A stretch of DNA of 64,000 bases from Verrucomicrobiota bacterium JB022. GTDB lineage: Bacteria; Verrucomicrobiota; Verrucomicrobiia; Opitutales; Oceanipulchritudinaceae. This document shows, piece by piece, positions 13,178 to 48,862 of this stretch (positions are counted from its first letter, which is position 1; every line of letters starts with the position of its first letter). The DNA is taken from contig JAUTCQ010000017.1 of assembly GCA_030673845.1 (NCBI GenBank), positions 124,001 to 188,000 of the forward strand. The letters are read 5' to 3'. A model generated the notes under the pieces. It ran no database searches. It was not told the origin of the DNA and saw only the letters and a program-made list of their open reading frames with translations. A program made the position numbers and the translations under genes.

Positions 13178-14626
13178 ATGGAGAAGCTCGATCCTACCTC
13201 GCCCTTGGCGCACCCACCACTCGGTGTGGCGCTGGTCCCCGTTATCGCGCTCATTGCCCTGCTGGGCGTGAATGTGCTCGTCTTTCAGGGCGATCCGCAC
13301 ATCCCCCTGCTGCTGGCTTCGGTCATCGCGGCCGTTACCTGTCTGGCGCTGGGCAGCTCGTGGCGTGAGTTGGAGGAGCGCATGATCGAGAGCGTGACGG
13401 TCGCCATCAAGCCCATCCTCATCCTGCTGGTGGTGGGCGTGCTGATCGGCCTCTGGATCATTTCGGGCGTGGTGCCGCTGCTGATCTATTACGGGCTGAT
13501 GTTCATTTCACCGGCGGTGTTTCTGCCGACGGCCTGCCTTTTGTGCGCGGTCGTCTCGCTGGCGATCGGCAGTAGCTGGTCCACTGCCGGCACGGTGGGG
13601 GTCGCGTTGATGGCGATTGGTGGGGGCATGGGGATGCCGTTGCCCCTGGTGGCCGGGGCGGTCGTTTCCGGGGCTTACTTTGGCGACAAGATGTCGCCGC
13701 TCTCCGAGACGACCAACCTCAGCCCGGCGGTGGCCGGTTGCGAGCTGTTCGAGCACATCCGCCACATGGTCTACTCGACGCTGCCGCCCTTTTTGATCGC
13801 GCTTGTCCTCTATGCCGTCATCGGCTTCACGCTCGACACCTCGGGCAGTCGCCTGGCCGATATCGAGACGCTGCTGGCCATTTTGCGGACGGAGTTCAAC
13901 CTCTCGCCGCTGCTCCTGCTGGCCCCGGGAGTCACGTTTGGGCTCGTGTTGCTGAAGGTGGACGCGCTGCCCAGCCTGATCGTCGGTTGCCTCGTGGGCG
14001 CGCTGCTGGGGGCCGTTTTCCAGGGCGTGCCGCTGGCCACGTTGCTCTCAACCGCCCAAAACGGCCTCGCCCTCGAAACTTCTTCGCCGGAGCTGAACGA
14101 GCTGCTCAACCGGGGTGGGCTCGACAGCATGTACTGGACGGTCGGCTTGATTATCCTCGCGATGGTCTTTGGTGGCATCATGGAGGCGGGCGGCCTGCTC
14201 CAGAGCATCAGTGCGGCGATCCTGCGCGTGGCGCGGGGGCAAAAGGGCGTGCTCTTCTCAGCCCTGTGCTCGTGCGTGGGCATCAACCTCCTCGCGTCCG
14301 ACCAATACCTCTCGATCGTGGTGCCCGGGCGCATGTTCCGCCCGGCGGTGGCCGAGAGCGGCCTGCACCTCAAGAACCTGTCGCGCGTGCTCGAAGACGG
14401 CGGCACCGTCAGCTCGCCCCTCATTTTCTGGAACACCTGCGGCGCCTACATGGGCTCGGTGCTCGGGGTCTCGGCCCTGGCCTACGCGCCGTATACGTTC
14501 TTCAACCTGCTGGTGCCCGTCATGTCGACGCTCATCATCTTCAGCGGCTGGACGCTCGTTCCCTCGCAGGAAGCGGTGGCGCAGGAGGCTGAAGCAGCGG
14601 AGGAAATGGAGGCCGAGAGTGCGTAG
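13178..14626 (+). CDS. nhaC: Na+/H+ antiporter, NhaC family
   Basis: About 482 residues and roughly 11-12 membrane helices. NhaC-family hallmarks are visible: AIGSSWSTAGTVGVALMAIG, GAYFGDKMSPLSETTNLSP with acidic and polar residues inside helices, and NLLASDQYLSIVVPGRM in the C-terminal half. It should exchange cytoplasmic Na+ for external H+, consistent with a saline habitat and with the osmolyte genes at the window start. The start at 13178 (MEKLDPTSP) is preferred over an upstream Met at 13124 because it precedes a short cytoplasmic segment before the first helix. The last residues are acidic (EAEAAEEMEAESA). Confidence 0.88.
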   Translation: MEKLDPTSPLAHPPLGVALVPVIALIALLGVNVLVFQGDPHIPLLLASVIAAVTCLALGSSWRELEERMIESVTVAIKPILILLVVGVLIGLWIISGVVPLLIYYGLMFISPAVFLPTACLLCAVVSLAIGSSWSTAGTVGVALMAIGGGMGMPLPLVAGAVVSGAYFGDKMSPLSETTNLSPAVAGCELFEHIRHMVYSTLPPFLIALVLYAVIGFTLDTSGSRLADIETLLAILRTEFNLSPLLLLAPGVTFGLVLLKVDALPSLIVGCLVGALLGAVFQGVPLATLLSTAQNGLALETSSPELNELLNRGGLDSMYWTVGLIILAMVFGGIMEAGGLLQSISAAILRVARGQKGVLFSALCSCVGINLLASDQYLSIVVPGRMFRPAVAESGLHLKNLSRVLEDGGTVSSPLIFWNTCGAYMGSVLGVSALAYAPYTFFNLLVPVMSTLIIFSGWTLVPSQEAVAQEAEAAEEMEAESA

Positions 14627-25263: not shown

Positions 25264-25308
25264 CATCCCCGCCTGATCCTCCTCCCACCTCCACCCCCCC
25301 CTACGCGG

Positions 25309-25923
25309 TTGACCCACCTCCAAGCCCTCCCGCGCTGGATTGCGACCACCCTCCTCCTGCTGGCCCTCGGCTGGTGGGCGCTGGGCTGCCAGCAGACGCC
25401 AGCGGCGCGCGAAGGGGTGGGGCGCAACCCGCAGCCCCCCGCCGGAGACGTGGCCAGCCTGCGCCCCGGCGACACCGTGCTGGTCGAGCTGCAAGGCATC
25501 CCCGACCCGGCACAGTTCAGCCTCCAGCTCGACGATCAGGGCCGCATCAGCCTGCGCTACCTCGGCCAGGTCGAGGCGGCTGGGCAGACGGCGTCGTCCC
25601 TCGCCCAGGAAATCCGCGACCTCTATCTGGAGCGCGACATCTACCGCCAGATCAACGTCTCCGTCGTGCTGGCGGAGCGCTACGTCTACGTCGGCGGCGA
25701 AGTCCAGCGCCCCGGCCCCGTCACCTGGTCAAATGATCTCACGCTGACCAAAGCCATCACCGCGGCCGGCGGCTTCGGCCTCTACGCCCGCGAACAAGGC
25801 GTGCAACTCAGCCGCGACGAGCGTAGTTACACCCTAGACGCCCGCCTCGCCCAACGCACCCCCACCGAAGACGTCCGCCTCCTCCCCGGCGACACGATCT
25901 TCGTGCCGAGGAGCGCGTTTTAG
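25309..25923 (+). CDS. Wza-type polysaccharide export lipoprotein
   Basis: A 204-residue protein from a TTG start. Its signal sequence ends in a lipobox-like LALGWWALGC-Q. Then a polysaccharide biosynthesis/export domain: LRPGDTVLVELQGIPDP, the core QLDDQGRISLRYLGQVEAAG and ITAAGGFG, followed by a SLBB-like repeat (YVYVGGEVQRPGPVTW) and LLPGDTIFVPRS at the end. It should form the outer-membrane part of an exopolysaccharide secretion channel. Only this single component of the system is present in the window; the exosortase lies about 3.6 kb further on, a pairing frequent in exosortase-carrying genomes. TTG start is chosen because no ATG precedes the signal sequence. Confidence 0.82.
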   Translation: MTHLQALPRWIATTLLLLALGWWALGCQQTPAAREGVGRNPQPPAGDVASLRPGDTVLVELQGIPDPAQFSLQLDDQGRISLRYLGQVEAAGQTASSLAQEIRDLYLERDIYRQINVSVVLAERYVYVGGEVQRPGPVTWSNDLTLTKAITAAGGFGLYAREQGVQLSRDERSYTLDARLAQRTPTEDVRLLPGDTIFVPRSAF

Positions 25924-43082: not shown

Positions 43083-44822
<1,740 letters not shown>

Positions 44823-44865
44823 AGCGCCCGCTCCCGTCTGTCAGTTCGCCAGAAACCACTTTCTC

Positions 44866-44900
44866 GCCGCCTCCCGGATCTCACCGGAGGCGGCTTTTTT
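44866..44900 (+). terminator. Intrinsic terminator after rng
   Basis: gccgcctcc (44866-44874) pairs with ggaggcggc (44886-44894), followed by tttttt. Confidence 0.85.
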
Positions 44901-44913
44901 GTGTAAAGAGGGT

Positions 44914-45002
44914 GGTGATGTGGACCACGCCAGGCCGCCAAGAGTAGACTCAGGCGGCGGTCAGCGCATCCCTTGGCGTTTTCGCGCCTTGGCGTGAGGC
45001 AA
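44914..45002. repeat. Degraded copy of the ctcacgccaaggcgc repeat
   Basis: Left remnant accacgccaggccgccaaga (about 44924-44943) and right arm cgcgccttggcgtgaggcaa (about 44983-45002), with an additional cccttggcgttttcgcgcct block inside. The arms match the family at 22060 and 32889. The plus-strand rng terminator lies just before it. Confidence 0.55.
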
Positions 45003-45009
45003 TGTGGTT

Positions 45010-45822
45010 TTAAAACTTTTTCCAGACCTCTTCCTCGTAGCTCCAGTACCACTTCGGGGTGTCTGGATTGCGGTTGTGGAAGATCCAGCCCTCGTCTGGC
45101 TTCCAGAGGTGTGGGTAGACAGTCTCGCTGGTCCAGAGCCAGCCGGCGGTTGGGTGATACATCCAGATGTTGAACGGATCGAGCCCGGAGAGGTAAAACC
45201 ACCCCGTATCCTTCCGCCATACCCACGGCCAGTCGAAATCCCAGAACCAGCCAAACCAGCCCTTGCGCCAGCCATCAGGCGAATATTGCGTGAACTGCAG
45301 GGGAAGCTCGCCCACGATGGTGTAGCCCCAAAACGCGGCACCTCCTACGTCTATTTTTGGATGGTTGTGCGTAACCGAGATCCAGGTGTCCAGATTGCTT
45401 TCGATGTATGACGGCCAGCTATCCAGGATTTCAGGCGAGGCATCAGTGAAGCGGAGGAATTCAGCGTTCCAGTTCCACCGCGAGAAATCGGTGGGCAATG
45501 CATGTGGAACAGAGGGATCGGTAAGACCGGATATGTAGTCACCGTTGATGGAGTCGCTCCCGCGATATATGTTCACGACGACCATCGGCAATAGACCGAG
45601 CTCGCTGAATAATCCTGGTTTGTAATCTGGGCGTCTCCAGACTTCAATCAGCTGCCTTGCGTATGCAATGTCATCCTCTTCTTGCAAGGATACAATATAA
45701 GAATCACGCTTGTTGTCGTCCAGTGAGGTGCTCCCTATCACAAAAGCACGACCTTGCGTCGCGACTTGGGCACATAGTGAGATCGAAGTAAAGACAAGAA
45801 AAGGTAATAAATGGATTTTCAT
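45010..45822 (-). CDS. Secreted protein with C-terminal tryptophan-rich repeats
   Basis: A 270-residue protein; ATG at 45822 gives a signal peptide (IHLLPFLVFTSISLCAQ). Middle part (residues 20-170) is of unknown fold. The C-terminal 90 residues are a striking series of W/Y-rich blocks: WRKGWFGWFWDFDWPWVW, DTGWFYLSG, PFNIWMYHPTAGWLW, YPHLWKPDEGWIFH and PKWYWSYEEEVW. The same repeat style ends the adjacent subtilase. Such blocks recur in extracellular proteins of marine Opitutae; no function is established. It is 67 bases downstream of the subtilase on the same strand, so both probably share a transcript. Composition is AT-richer than the average of this window. Confidence 0.65.
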   Translation of the reverse strand: MKIHLLPFLVFTSISLCAQVATQGRAFVIGSTSLDDNKRDSYIVSLQEEDDIAYARQLIEVWRRPDYKPGLFSELGLLPMVVVNIYRGSDSINGDYISGLTDPSVPHALPTDFSRWNWNAEFLRFTDASPEILDSWPSYIESNLDTWISVTHNHPKIDVGGAAFWGYTIVGELPLQFTQYSPDGWRKGWFGWFWDFDWPWVWRKDTGWFYLSGLDPFNIWMYHPTAGWLWTSETVYPHLWKPDEGWIFHNRNPDTPKWYWSYEEEVWKKF

Positions 45823-45889
45823 GATGCGGAGAAAACGACCTGCATCCAGGCTGCAGGTCGTATGGGAGGTGATAGATATGCTAGGAGTT

Positions 45890-47634
45890 TTATTCGTTGT
45901 AAGCTTCCCAGCCCTGGGTGGAGTCATTCCAGAACATCCAATGATTTGCACCCGTGCTGTGGAAATTAATCCAAGCGTTGTCACTGTAGCGCCAGAACCA
46001 AGGATGTGTGCTAGGATCTACAGAAATCCAGCCTAGATTTTCGCGCCATACCGTATGCGTTGTCATCGGTTCATCACTGTCAGCCCATTCTTTCAGGCCA
46101 TCCTGTTGATTGCACTGAAAGGGGTAGAACCATGAGTTAATGAAGAGCATTCTGTTTGCTGAACCACCAAGAGAGCCGGTGATCTTTCCAATAGAGGCTT
46201 GATTCTTGATTGCCTGTTGGACTTGATCCGGTGTAAGCGATGGGGATTGCTCTAAAATTCGTGCCGCTGCCCCAGCCACATGGGGAGAAGCTGAAGACGT
46301 CCCGCCTTCATGCCAGAAAGCATAGTCATAATTATCATTATGGCTTGCGGAATAGAGTTCATCAGCAGGGCCCCAGACATCTACGACACTACCGTAATTT
46401 GAGTAGGGGCTTTTTGCATCGTCCCGAGTCAAGGCCCCCACTGTAATTGCATTAATGATGCGGGCAGGAGACCTGTTTGCTGCGTTTGTCGATTCGTTTC
46501 CAGCTGAAACAACAACGACGATGCCCTCGCTAATCATTTGTTCGACGGCTTGGTCCATGGCCGGAGAAGGATTACCCCCAAGGCTCATGTTTGCTACACC
46601 TGCTTGACTGATATTATGATCCGCTAAGACTGCATTAATACAGGAGATGATTGTGCTGGTCGAGCTATGGGGATTAGCGCGGGTATGAAACCACTTGTAA
46701 GAGTGAATTGTGGCGTGTTTTGCAACTCCAAAATATGTGCCTGCGGCTAGTCCCGCGACGAATGTTCCGTGGTTCTCGGAATCCTGAACGCCTTGGCCTG
46801 TGGCATCATATAAAGTGCCTACTCGACCGCTAAAGTCTTGGTGGGTTGCGTTGAGCCCGGTGTCGATAATGTAGATGTGAACACCGTCGCCCTCATAATC
46901 ATATCGATAAGTGCTGTCCTCAGGTGTGCTTTGATTTCGTTGGTCTATTCTGCTAAGATTCCAAGGCGCTAACTGATCAGTATATGAAAGTGCAAAGGGC
47001 TTGTCCGCCTCTACGCTCTTCACGCCAGGCAGCTTGGCCAGAGCGGTCGCTTGTTCGGCGGTGAGCTGGGCGGAGAAGCCAGCGATGGCAAAGTTCCAGG
47101 CAGAGTGGAGTTCGCCGCCGACTTCGGAGACGAGGCGCTCGGCCAAGGCGTCGAGGGTTTCACCCGCGTCGGTCACGCGCTTGCTCTCGTAGCGGGACTC
47201 GGCGACCAGCTTGTAGGGGAATAGTGATTCGTCGAAGGTAACGATGTACTGGTCCGGTACCGCGTCGAGGCCCATCGAGTGGGCGAAGTTGGCGCGGGCG
47301 GCATAGCTGGAGCCCGCGCGTTGGATTTCAGCGGCGTTGGGCTGGCGGGTGGTGACGGTGAGCCAGCTAGGCACCGGCTCCAGGTCGGCCAGCTCTTCCT
47401 TGAAGAGCTGAGAGCGCAGTGCGCGGGCTTCAGCTTGCGCGTCTGCGCGCTGGAAGCGGATTTCAGCAATACCGGCCTTCAGCGCCTCTTCGCTGGGCGG
47501 AGCGGGGGTGTAGGTGGGCGCCGGCGTCAGTGGCCCATAATCAGGCATCGGCGTCGTGGGCTGTGCGGCCAGCGGCAGCGCAGCGATGGAGGTCAGAAGG
47601 GCGAGCGAGAAACGCCCGAGGGGGGGGGGTACAT
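45890..47634 (-). CDS. Secreted subtilase with G-tract-disrupted start
   Basis: S8 serine protease. Residues just after the start encode a signal peptide (FSLALLTSIAALPLAA), then an I9-type prodomain (DQYIVTFDESLF), the catalytic domain with Asp (IYIIDTGLNATHQD), His (ENHGTFVAGLAAG), oxyanion Asn (VVSAGNES) and Ser (GGTSSASPHVAG), and C-terminal W-rich blocks (WRENLGWISV, PWFWRYSDNAWINF, ANHWMFWNDSTQGW). A run of ten G (47620-47629 on plus) separates likely ATG codons from the signal-peptide frame: ATG at 47634 is in frame only with 11 G, ATG at 47642 only with 9 G. As written, translation would begin at 47548, which would lack the signal peptide. Slippage-controlled expression or a sequencing error are both possible. 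Confidence 0.85.
47620..47629. repeat. G10 homopolymer tract at start of subtilase gene
   Basis: Ten consecutive G on the plus strand (C on the coding strand), located five bases after one candidate ATG and thirteen after another. One-base changes restore one or the other start into the reading frame, so only 10 (and multiples) would be the off state. Long G tracts at starts of surface genes are a classic contingency-locus form, but also a common assembly error. Confidence 0.7.
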
Positions 47635-47798
47635 TTTGTCATGTTAATGCGATATGTATAGCCAGAAGGCGTGCTTCTTTTGCATTGATGACAACGATAG
47701 GTCAACTATTTTTCGAGTGATAATGGTGAGCTTAAAACATCGCTTGGGTAAGGTATAAGTAACGTTTTTGATTTTCTGATTTCATTATCGTTTGCTCC

Positions 47799-48770
47799 CT
47801 ACTCCCCCTGCCCGCCGAACATCTGGGCGGCCATGCGGAATTGACCGATCTGGAGGACGAGTTGCTGCTCCTGATTGCGGCGGAAGACCTCGAGTTGCGC
47901 GGGCGTGAGGTAGGGCACGACGGCTTGGGCGACGAGTTCGTTGGCCTGACGCATCTCGGTGGCGTAGGTGTCGATGTTGGCTTCGTTGATGCGGGTGAGG
48001 TCGCTGTTGTTGGGGTCGGTGACGAAGGTGGAGGTAAAGGGATACTGGCGGCGCGTCTCGTGGATTACGTCGACGAGCTGATTGTAGGTATCGGCCCCGA
48101 GGGGTTCGCCGGTGTTGCGCAGGTTGCCCGCGAGCCCGTCGAGCTCCATGCGGATGCCGAGGGTGTCTTCGAAGTAGTTGAAGGCGGCCATGTCTTCCTC
48201 GCTGTTGAGGAAGGTGCGGAGGTCTTCGCGCATCTGGGCCTCCGTCTCCTGCATCTGCTGGAGGGCGGCGGCTCGCTCCTCATCGGTCACGCTGCTGCGC
48301 ATGCCGAGCAGGCCAAAGTTGACGCGCCCCATCTGACGGGCCAGCAGCAAGTCGTAGAAGTATTCCCGCTCCTCCGGGGCAAAGTCGTACTGCTCTGCCA
48401 GCCGCCGGTAGAGGACTTCCATGGTGCTGCGCTGCTGGGCGGTCACCATCTCGCTCATTGCGGGGTTGTTCTCAATCATGTTGGCCATCTCGTCCATCAG
48501 GGTCGACTCCTGACGCTGGCGGGTGGAAGCTGCCGCGGGTGGGGTGGCGACCGCTTGGGTGCGGACGTCCTCCAGCTCGGCCTTGAGACGTTCGACTTCG
48601 CGCACCATGGCAAGCTCGGCCGGCTCCTGGGTGGTGATGGCGGTCGACTGGGCGAGGGCTTCGGCCAATTGGGCGTGCAGGCGGTCGATCTGGCGGTGTT
48701 GGAACAGGGCGAGCCCGGCGAGGGCCGCGCTGAGCAGGGTCAGGAGAAGGAGGGGCGTTTGTCGGCGCAT
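47799..48770 (-). CDS. Membrane-anchored coiled-coil protein
   Basis: A 323-residue protein. A single N-terminal hydrophobic helix (TPLLLLTLLSAALAGLALFQ) with RR before it, then coiled coil (RLHAQLAEALAQ; REVERLKAELEDVRTQAVA), a Pro/Ala linker, and a soluble helical domain (LYRRLAEQYDFAPEEREYFY, LLLARQMGRVNFGLLGMRSS, YNQLVDVIHETRRQYPF, PYLTPAQLEVFRRNQEQQLV). The PYLTPAQLEVF helix resembles Spy/LTxxQ-like stretches. No family assigned. It diverges from the next gene across about 90 bases. Confidence 0.6.
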   Translation of the reverse strand: MRRQTPLLLLTLLSAALAGLALFQHRQIDRLHAQLAEALAQSTAITTQEPAELAMVREVERLKAELEDVRTQAVATPPAAASTRQRQESTLMDEMANMIENNPAMSEMVTAQQRSTMEVLYRRLAEQYDFAPEEREYFYDLLLARQMGRVNFGLLGMRSSVTDEERAAALQQMQETEAQMREDLRTFLNSEEDMAAFNYFEDTLGIRMELDGLAGNLRNTGEPLGADTYNQLVDVIHETRRQYPFTSTFVTDPNNSDLTRINEANIDTYATEMRQANELVAQAVVPYLTPAQLEVFRRNQEQQLVLQIGQFRMAAQMFGGQGE

Positions 48771-48862
48771 GATAGCGTTAGTATGCCAGCCGTAAGCATG
48801 AATGGCAATGCCGAAAAGTGAGGCTGGCCACTGGCGCTGCCAAGCGTTTTCATGCTCGGCAC

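Follow-up and report, generated by a model that had tools for sequence, protein, structure and literature searches.

What has to be explained at this locus is a signal peptide without a start codon ahead of an otherwise open subtilase gene. The tract of ten C residues beside it is in itself not surprising. G10 was present in 26 of 100 dinucleotide shuffles of the window (the whole stretch of 64,000 nucleotides analysed here; mean 0.40 matches), and the C10 tract by itself is within chance expectation and unremarkable. The genome of the window (G000; 4.35 Mb in 25 contigs) contains 19 overlapping G10 matches in five tracts, with lengths of 16, 16, 12, 10 and 10, respectively; with five such tracts genome-wide, long tracts are not enriched. 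G/C tracts of at least 8 bases in this genome are often found at gene edges, which counts against reading the C10 tract as a switch. When the start-less 5' extensions of window ORFs of at least 150 codons were ranked (genes and non-genes together), the hydrophobic stretch of the subtilase came fourth of 86; it is unusual, not unique, in the window.

Reading frames at the 5' end of the gene

The gene is on the minus strand, where the tract reads as C10 (exactly ten G on the plus strand; Table 1). Two ATG codons upstream of the tract (47642-47640 and 47634-47632) are in the two frames other than that of the gene. In the subtilase frame, no ATG, GTG or TTG was found from the TGA at 47641-47639 to the ATG at 47548-47546. 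At C10, the ORF from the farther ATG has 33 codons (stop at 47543-47541) and that from the nearer ATG 13 codons (stop at 47595-47593).

Tract lengths of 6 to 14 were modelled. With C6, C9 or C12 the signal peptide is joined to ATG47642 (the product at C9 begins MTKCTPPLGRFSLALL), with C8, C11 or C14 to ATG47634 (the product at C11 begins MYPPPLGRFSLALL), and with C7, C10 or C13 it is left without ATG, GTG or TTG start. Lengths of 3n and 3n+2 each join one ATG and lengths of 3n+1 neither, so two of the three length classes are ON, and the length of this 5'-terminal G/C run fixes the frame in which the coding region is read. The first-pass annotation had described C10 as blocking the gene below an upstream TGA, with C9 and C11 opening it, and the frame scan bore this out; ten is the only length from nine to eleven that leaves both ATGs out of frame, as it had proposed, and the wider scan adds C7 and C13. 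The two or three prolines in the n-region of the signal peptides made at C9 and C11 count against a switch.

Codon usage was non-coding in all three frames before the tract (log-odds -9.8 to -15.0), and after the tract favoured the frame of the signal peptide (+1.9, compared with -15.5 and -6.1 for the other frames). As the coding signal is present only after the tract, the tract is the most likely place for translation to begin, rather than 47548. The first-pass annotation had named a conserved start at 47548 with no signal peptide as the finding that would speak against a switch; this was not supported: codon usage upstream of 47548 is coding-like in the frame of the gene, and in two related genes described below (G002:C134 and G002:C80) the N-terminus upstream of that region is hydrophobic and in frame. 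We also rejected a start other than ATG for the signal peptide at C10, the frame having no ATG, GTG or TTG before 47548; the CTG and ATC codons before 47548 were rejected as starts as well, both being within the hydrophobic stretch.

Table 1. Features of the subtilase gene and its 5' region (window positions)
Feature	Position	Strand	Basis
Farther ATG; in frame with the signal peptide at C6, C9, C12	47640..47642	-	Frame scan
TGA shutting the signal-peptide frame upstream at C10	47639..47641	-	Frame scan
Nearer ATG; in frame with the signal peptide at C8, C11, C14	47632..47634	-	Frame scan
C10 tract, proposed slippage site	47620..47629	-	Sequence reading
Putative signal-peptide segment GRFSLALLTSIAALPLAA; at C10 out of frame with both ATGs	47564..47617	-	Frames, codon usage, hydropathy ranking
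33-codon ORF from the farther ATG at C10; stop just past ATG 47548	47541..47642	-	Frame scan
Subtilase frame from first in-frame ATG, 552 codons + stop	45890..47548	-	ORF
Inhibitor_I9 propeptide, residues 100-185	46994..47251	-	Pfam
Composition step, head (GC3 about 0.8) to catalytic part (GC3 about 0.47)	46945..47094	-	GC3
Peptidase_S8 catalytic domain, residues 220-451	46196..46891	-	Pfam, alignment

Protein domains and export

Including the signal-peptide part, the open frame is 582 codons long and encodes an I9 propeptide and an S8 domain. The latter aligned with aqualysin I (4dzt; 4.1e-64) and proteinase K (5.3e-37) across the catalytic regions (DTG, HGT and GTSxAxPH motifs); the protein is of the proteinase K/aqualysin type. 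It has the I9 propeptide and an alignable catalytic domain in common with these enzymes, but differs from them by about 95 extra residues before the propeptide, common only to the genes of one other genome (G002, see below), and by a C-terminus without Pfam match. The signal-peptide-like segment in the frame of the gene, together with a protease family that is usually exported, suggests that the product is exported. Structure prediction from a 10-row alignment gave a mean pLDDT of 53.1 and was set aside. In the region 44800-48000, Rfam searches at gathering scores gave no match, and a promoter scan gave 7 promoter-like sites compared with 1.6 in shuffles, none of the 7 upstream of the tract.

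By eye, the C-terminal regions of the subtilase (45893-46141) and of the protein encoded at 45010-45825 are alike and rich in Trp. The latter region matches protein ends in 18 of 28 relatives, with at most 23 matches per genome. Neither belongs to a Pfam family, apart from a borderline BP74_N match in the 45010-45825 protein, and the region may function in this lineage as a surface or sorting domain.

Relatives sharing the head

The N-terminal head is clade-specific and was found in four genes: the window gene and three paralogues in G002, a MAG of the same family and a different genus. Among 372 genomes of the order, members of the clade were present only in G000 and G002, and 387 genomes of the phylum (a sample that overlaps with that of the order and does not contain G002) yielded no full member beyond G000. 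The sole other match across the two samples was a partial one (G589, residues 87-195, 6.4e-9). A contig scan returned 52 loci, of which only the three G002 records match the head before about residue 75; in a scan of viral contigs with the head 25 stretches matched, none of them a relative.

The only other full-length member found, G002:C5, is out of frame as well. It has a G9 tract (L049:4493-4501) where the hydrophobic core of its signal peptide ends, and as assembled its signal-peptide ORF stops before reaching the mature frame. When lengths of 6 to 13 were modelled, only G8 and G11 joined an ATG-started signal peptide to that frame. The combination of a repeat and a frame break thus recurs in a homologue, and since the two tracts are unlike in base and position, they have separate origins. 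This out-of-frame G9 in the nearest full-length relative is independent support for a switch, which the first-pass annotation lacked. By eye, an ORF like a transposase is present at L049:86-1165, about 3.3 kb upstream of the G002:C5 protease.

The other two G002 paralogues are in frame at their signal peptides. G002:C134 has a G7 tract; stop codons end its ORF at the head/catalytic junction, with 118 bases of contig left. G002:C80, which has no tract, leaves its contig at the same junction; its 5' end contains a perfect 22-bp tandem duplication (L045:2111-2154) with ambiguous starts. This duplication was considered as a third switch, in which a single copy would bring GTG 2086 of L045 in frame, and was dropped because a TTG in frame, as well as GTG codons, can serve as the start of that signal peptide in the present sequence.

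A related gene in another genus is thus broken in the corresponding place by a G run of its own, and this points to an on/off switch like those described mostly in pathogens. Judged from the sequences, we give a probability of about 0.6 to slipped-strand phase variation of a secreted protease, caught in the OFF state. Slipped-strand mispairing during replication would add or remove single C residues in the tract. At lengths of 3n+1, such as the C10 found here, the signal peptide would lack a start codon and no protease would be exported (OFF). At 3n and 3n+2 it would be fused to one of the two close ATGs (ON), giving two versions of a proteinase K-like secreted enzyme, with I9 propeptide, that differ slightly in their N-terminal regions, and the OFF state would be reversible in cells.

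It is possible, albeit unlikely, that the OFF state is fixed: a single slippage or indel at the tract would have killed export, separately so in G002:C5, and the genes would be early pseudogenes. The rarity of the clade fits this explanation, as does G002:C134, where the stop at the head/catalytic junction means that one copy may be broken. The GeneTack study defines a phase-variation cluster by five or more homologous frameshifted genes and regards occurrence in few genera as a trait of pseudogenes (PMC3711429); here few genera and few frameshifted members are involved, and with two such genes, one of them the only one out of frame among the three G002 paralogues, the set is too small to call by those criteria. 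Against a fixed OFF state, both out-of-frame genes are open over more than 550 codons apart from the start, and the sole break in each coincides with a G/C homopolymer (9 or 10 bases).

Comparison across 81 subtilase ORFs

Of the 181 loci collected, 110 (L001-L020, L044-L052 and L055-L135) entered a comparison of subtilase 5' ends, the rest comprising tract and neighbour loci, additional copies, matches of other proteins, and L167 (the partial match in G589). From these 110 we dropped 1 without a match, 4 cut at the 5' end, 18 duplicates, 4 of more than 720 residues and 2 start-less upstream, leaving 81 ORFs. The N-terminus was scored leniently, as the best 11-residue hydropathy over every possible start upstream of the match.

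With a threshold of 1.9, chosen after the gap in the values had been seen, only the window gene (0.79) and G002:C5 (0.32) were below it, the next value among the 81 being 1.93; all 77 controls had a hydrophobic N-terminus in frame. The same two genes were the only ones of the 81 with a 5' G/C tract of at least 9 bases. At a minimum of 7 bases, G002:C134 and one of the 77 controls (L122) were added. The window gene was left out of the Fisher comparison since it had been chosen for its tract; without it, tracts of at least 7 bases were present in 2 of 3 clade members and 1 of 77 controls (p 0.003), a value that is a guide and not a strict test because the three are paralogues from one MAG.

Homopolymers elsewhere and remaining explanations

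An assembly or sequencing error, with a true tract of nine or eleven and a gene that is simply ON, is improbable. Ten-base tracts are the hardest to call, but the homopolymers elsewhere argue against such an error. Those of the window (at least 5 G/C or at least 6 A/T; n = 115) were scored by codon usage: 49 were in frame within genes, 5 showed a frame change, all at junctions of adjacent ORFs on the same strand, and 61 were at edges, between opposite strands or in unscored DNA. No other homopolymer among the 115 breaks a gene, which makes the error proposed as an alternative in the first-pass annotation less likely; nearly all have 5-7 bases, with one other reaching eight, so that they speak only weakly about ten-base tracts. 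For the longer tracts in the genome of the window (at least 8 bases), 4 of 23 had an in-frame position inside a gene by the same score, and a fifth comes after an ATG and is in frame with it; 13 tracts in G001, a genome of the same genus, were also codon-scored.

In addition, G002 has the same kind of break, and the study from which this MAG is inferred to come used Illumina HiSeq4000 2 x 150 reads and MEGAHIT (PMC6704655). Seventeen of 20 places with G002 tracts of at least 9 bases were read: by codon score six were in frame in a gene, one showed a frame change at a gene junction (L154), three were at edges and seven, including that of the protease itself, were unscored.

Function at C10, with polymerase or ribosome slippage giving some export or re-initiation at ATG47548 giving a cytoplasmic form, is very unlikely: re-initiation would be permitted by the position of this ATG, two bases upstream of the stop that ends the 33-codon ORF, but a start there omits the signal peptide that all the controls have, G002:C5 has no such layout (its first in-frame ATG is at L049:4630), and transcriptional slippage is described, in the GeneTack study, mainly for A or T runs (PMC3711429).

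Comparison with known switches

Homopolymer phase variation is already known as a kind, and the setting here is unusual. Repeat-driven phase variation has been studied mainly in host-adapted pathogens. The lic2A-like switches of Haemophilus influenzae have start codons in several frames before the repeat, so that two of three lengths are readable. The window gene has multiple start frames before its repeat in common with them; their repeats are tetranucleotides, whereas that of the window is a homopolymer. Opitutales and Akkermansia both belong to the Verrucomicrobiota. In Akkermansia muciniphila, 17 genes have been reported to contain tracts longer than 8 bases; phase variation was proposed, with capsule genes highlighted (PMC3048395); here, in contrast, a secreted protease and a relative of the same layout would be concerned.

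The closest precedent is NalP of Neisseria meningitidis, which is described as a phase-variable subtilisin-like autotransporter with a poly-C tract (PMC5472700). Both proteins are subtilisin-like serine proteases and NalP is exported. However, NalP is an autotransporter lipoprotein with a beta-domain, whereas in the window protein Pfam detected I9 and S8 only and no autotransporter beta-domain. The tract of NalP is within the coding region, unlike the tract of the window, which is at the start codons before the signal peptide. Switching has been shown for NalP and is predicted for the window gene.

Our literature search found no account of slipped-strand mispairing or phase variation in Opitutales. 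If the switch is real in this order, with one of the bacteria from soda-lake sediment, it could represent bet-hedging over a costly shared enzyme outside hosts; the pressure could alternatively be phage or a predator.

Composition of the gene

The step in GC3 adjoins the boundary of the propeptide and the catalytic domain, and the two parts also differ in their closest relatives. The head finds its nearest counterparts in the heads of G002 (38% and 36% identity). The catalytic domain shows 42-43% identity to enzymes of Chloroflexi, Caldilineae and Luteimonas, 40% to an enzyme of another Opitutales genome (G052) and only 31% to G002:C5. The subtilase is likeliest a mosaic, as judged by composition and identity, in which a clade-specific local head is fused to a catalytic domain of other origin; in view of the 40% identity to the G052 enzyme, the donor may belong to the same order.

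In G001 the protease had no match beyond residues 490-551. This genome contains a relative of the neighbouring gene 47799-48773 (47%) among other genes; the 20 kb surrounding that relative contain no further ORF with a match in the window.

The head on a domain of foreign composition and kinship, together with two G002 heads that end at or near the same junction, also raises the doubtful idea of a switchable module, made up of signal peptide, clade-specific stretch and propeptide and slippery at its 5' tract, to which different catalytic domains can be attached, so that environmental Opitutales would both switch and swap their secreted proteases.

Other C tracts in the genome

The two longest G/C tracts of the genome (G000:C2:13644-13659 and 13770-13785; L023) are each C16 on the coding strand. 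Both are upstream of a gene with a MACPF/perforin domain, the nearer one 8 bases before its ATG, and may form a switch in the leader or promoter of this pore-forming protein. Among 19 genomes searched, this protein is whole only in the genome of the window; G009 matches its C-terminal part. At L042 (G000:C23:46432-46440), a C9 tract precedes by 8 bases the ATG of a small protein whose N-terminus resembles a signal peptide. In the window, a C8 tract (25294-25301) lies 7 bases before the TTG of 25309-25923, by eye a polysaccharide-export lipoprotein; it was considered as a second switch and is taken for a leader tract, because the gene can start from this TTG, which is in frame and downstream of the C8. 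C tracts shortly before the starts of exported proteins may be a pattern in this genome. G/C tracts of at least 9 bases number 70 and 89 in two other genomes of the family (G003 and G005, respectively), compared with 10 in that of the window, which may reflect either biology or a sequencing artefact.
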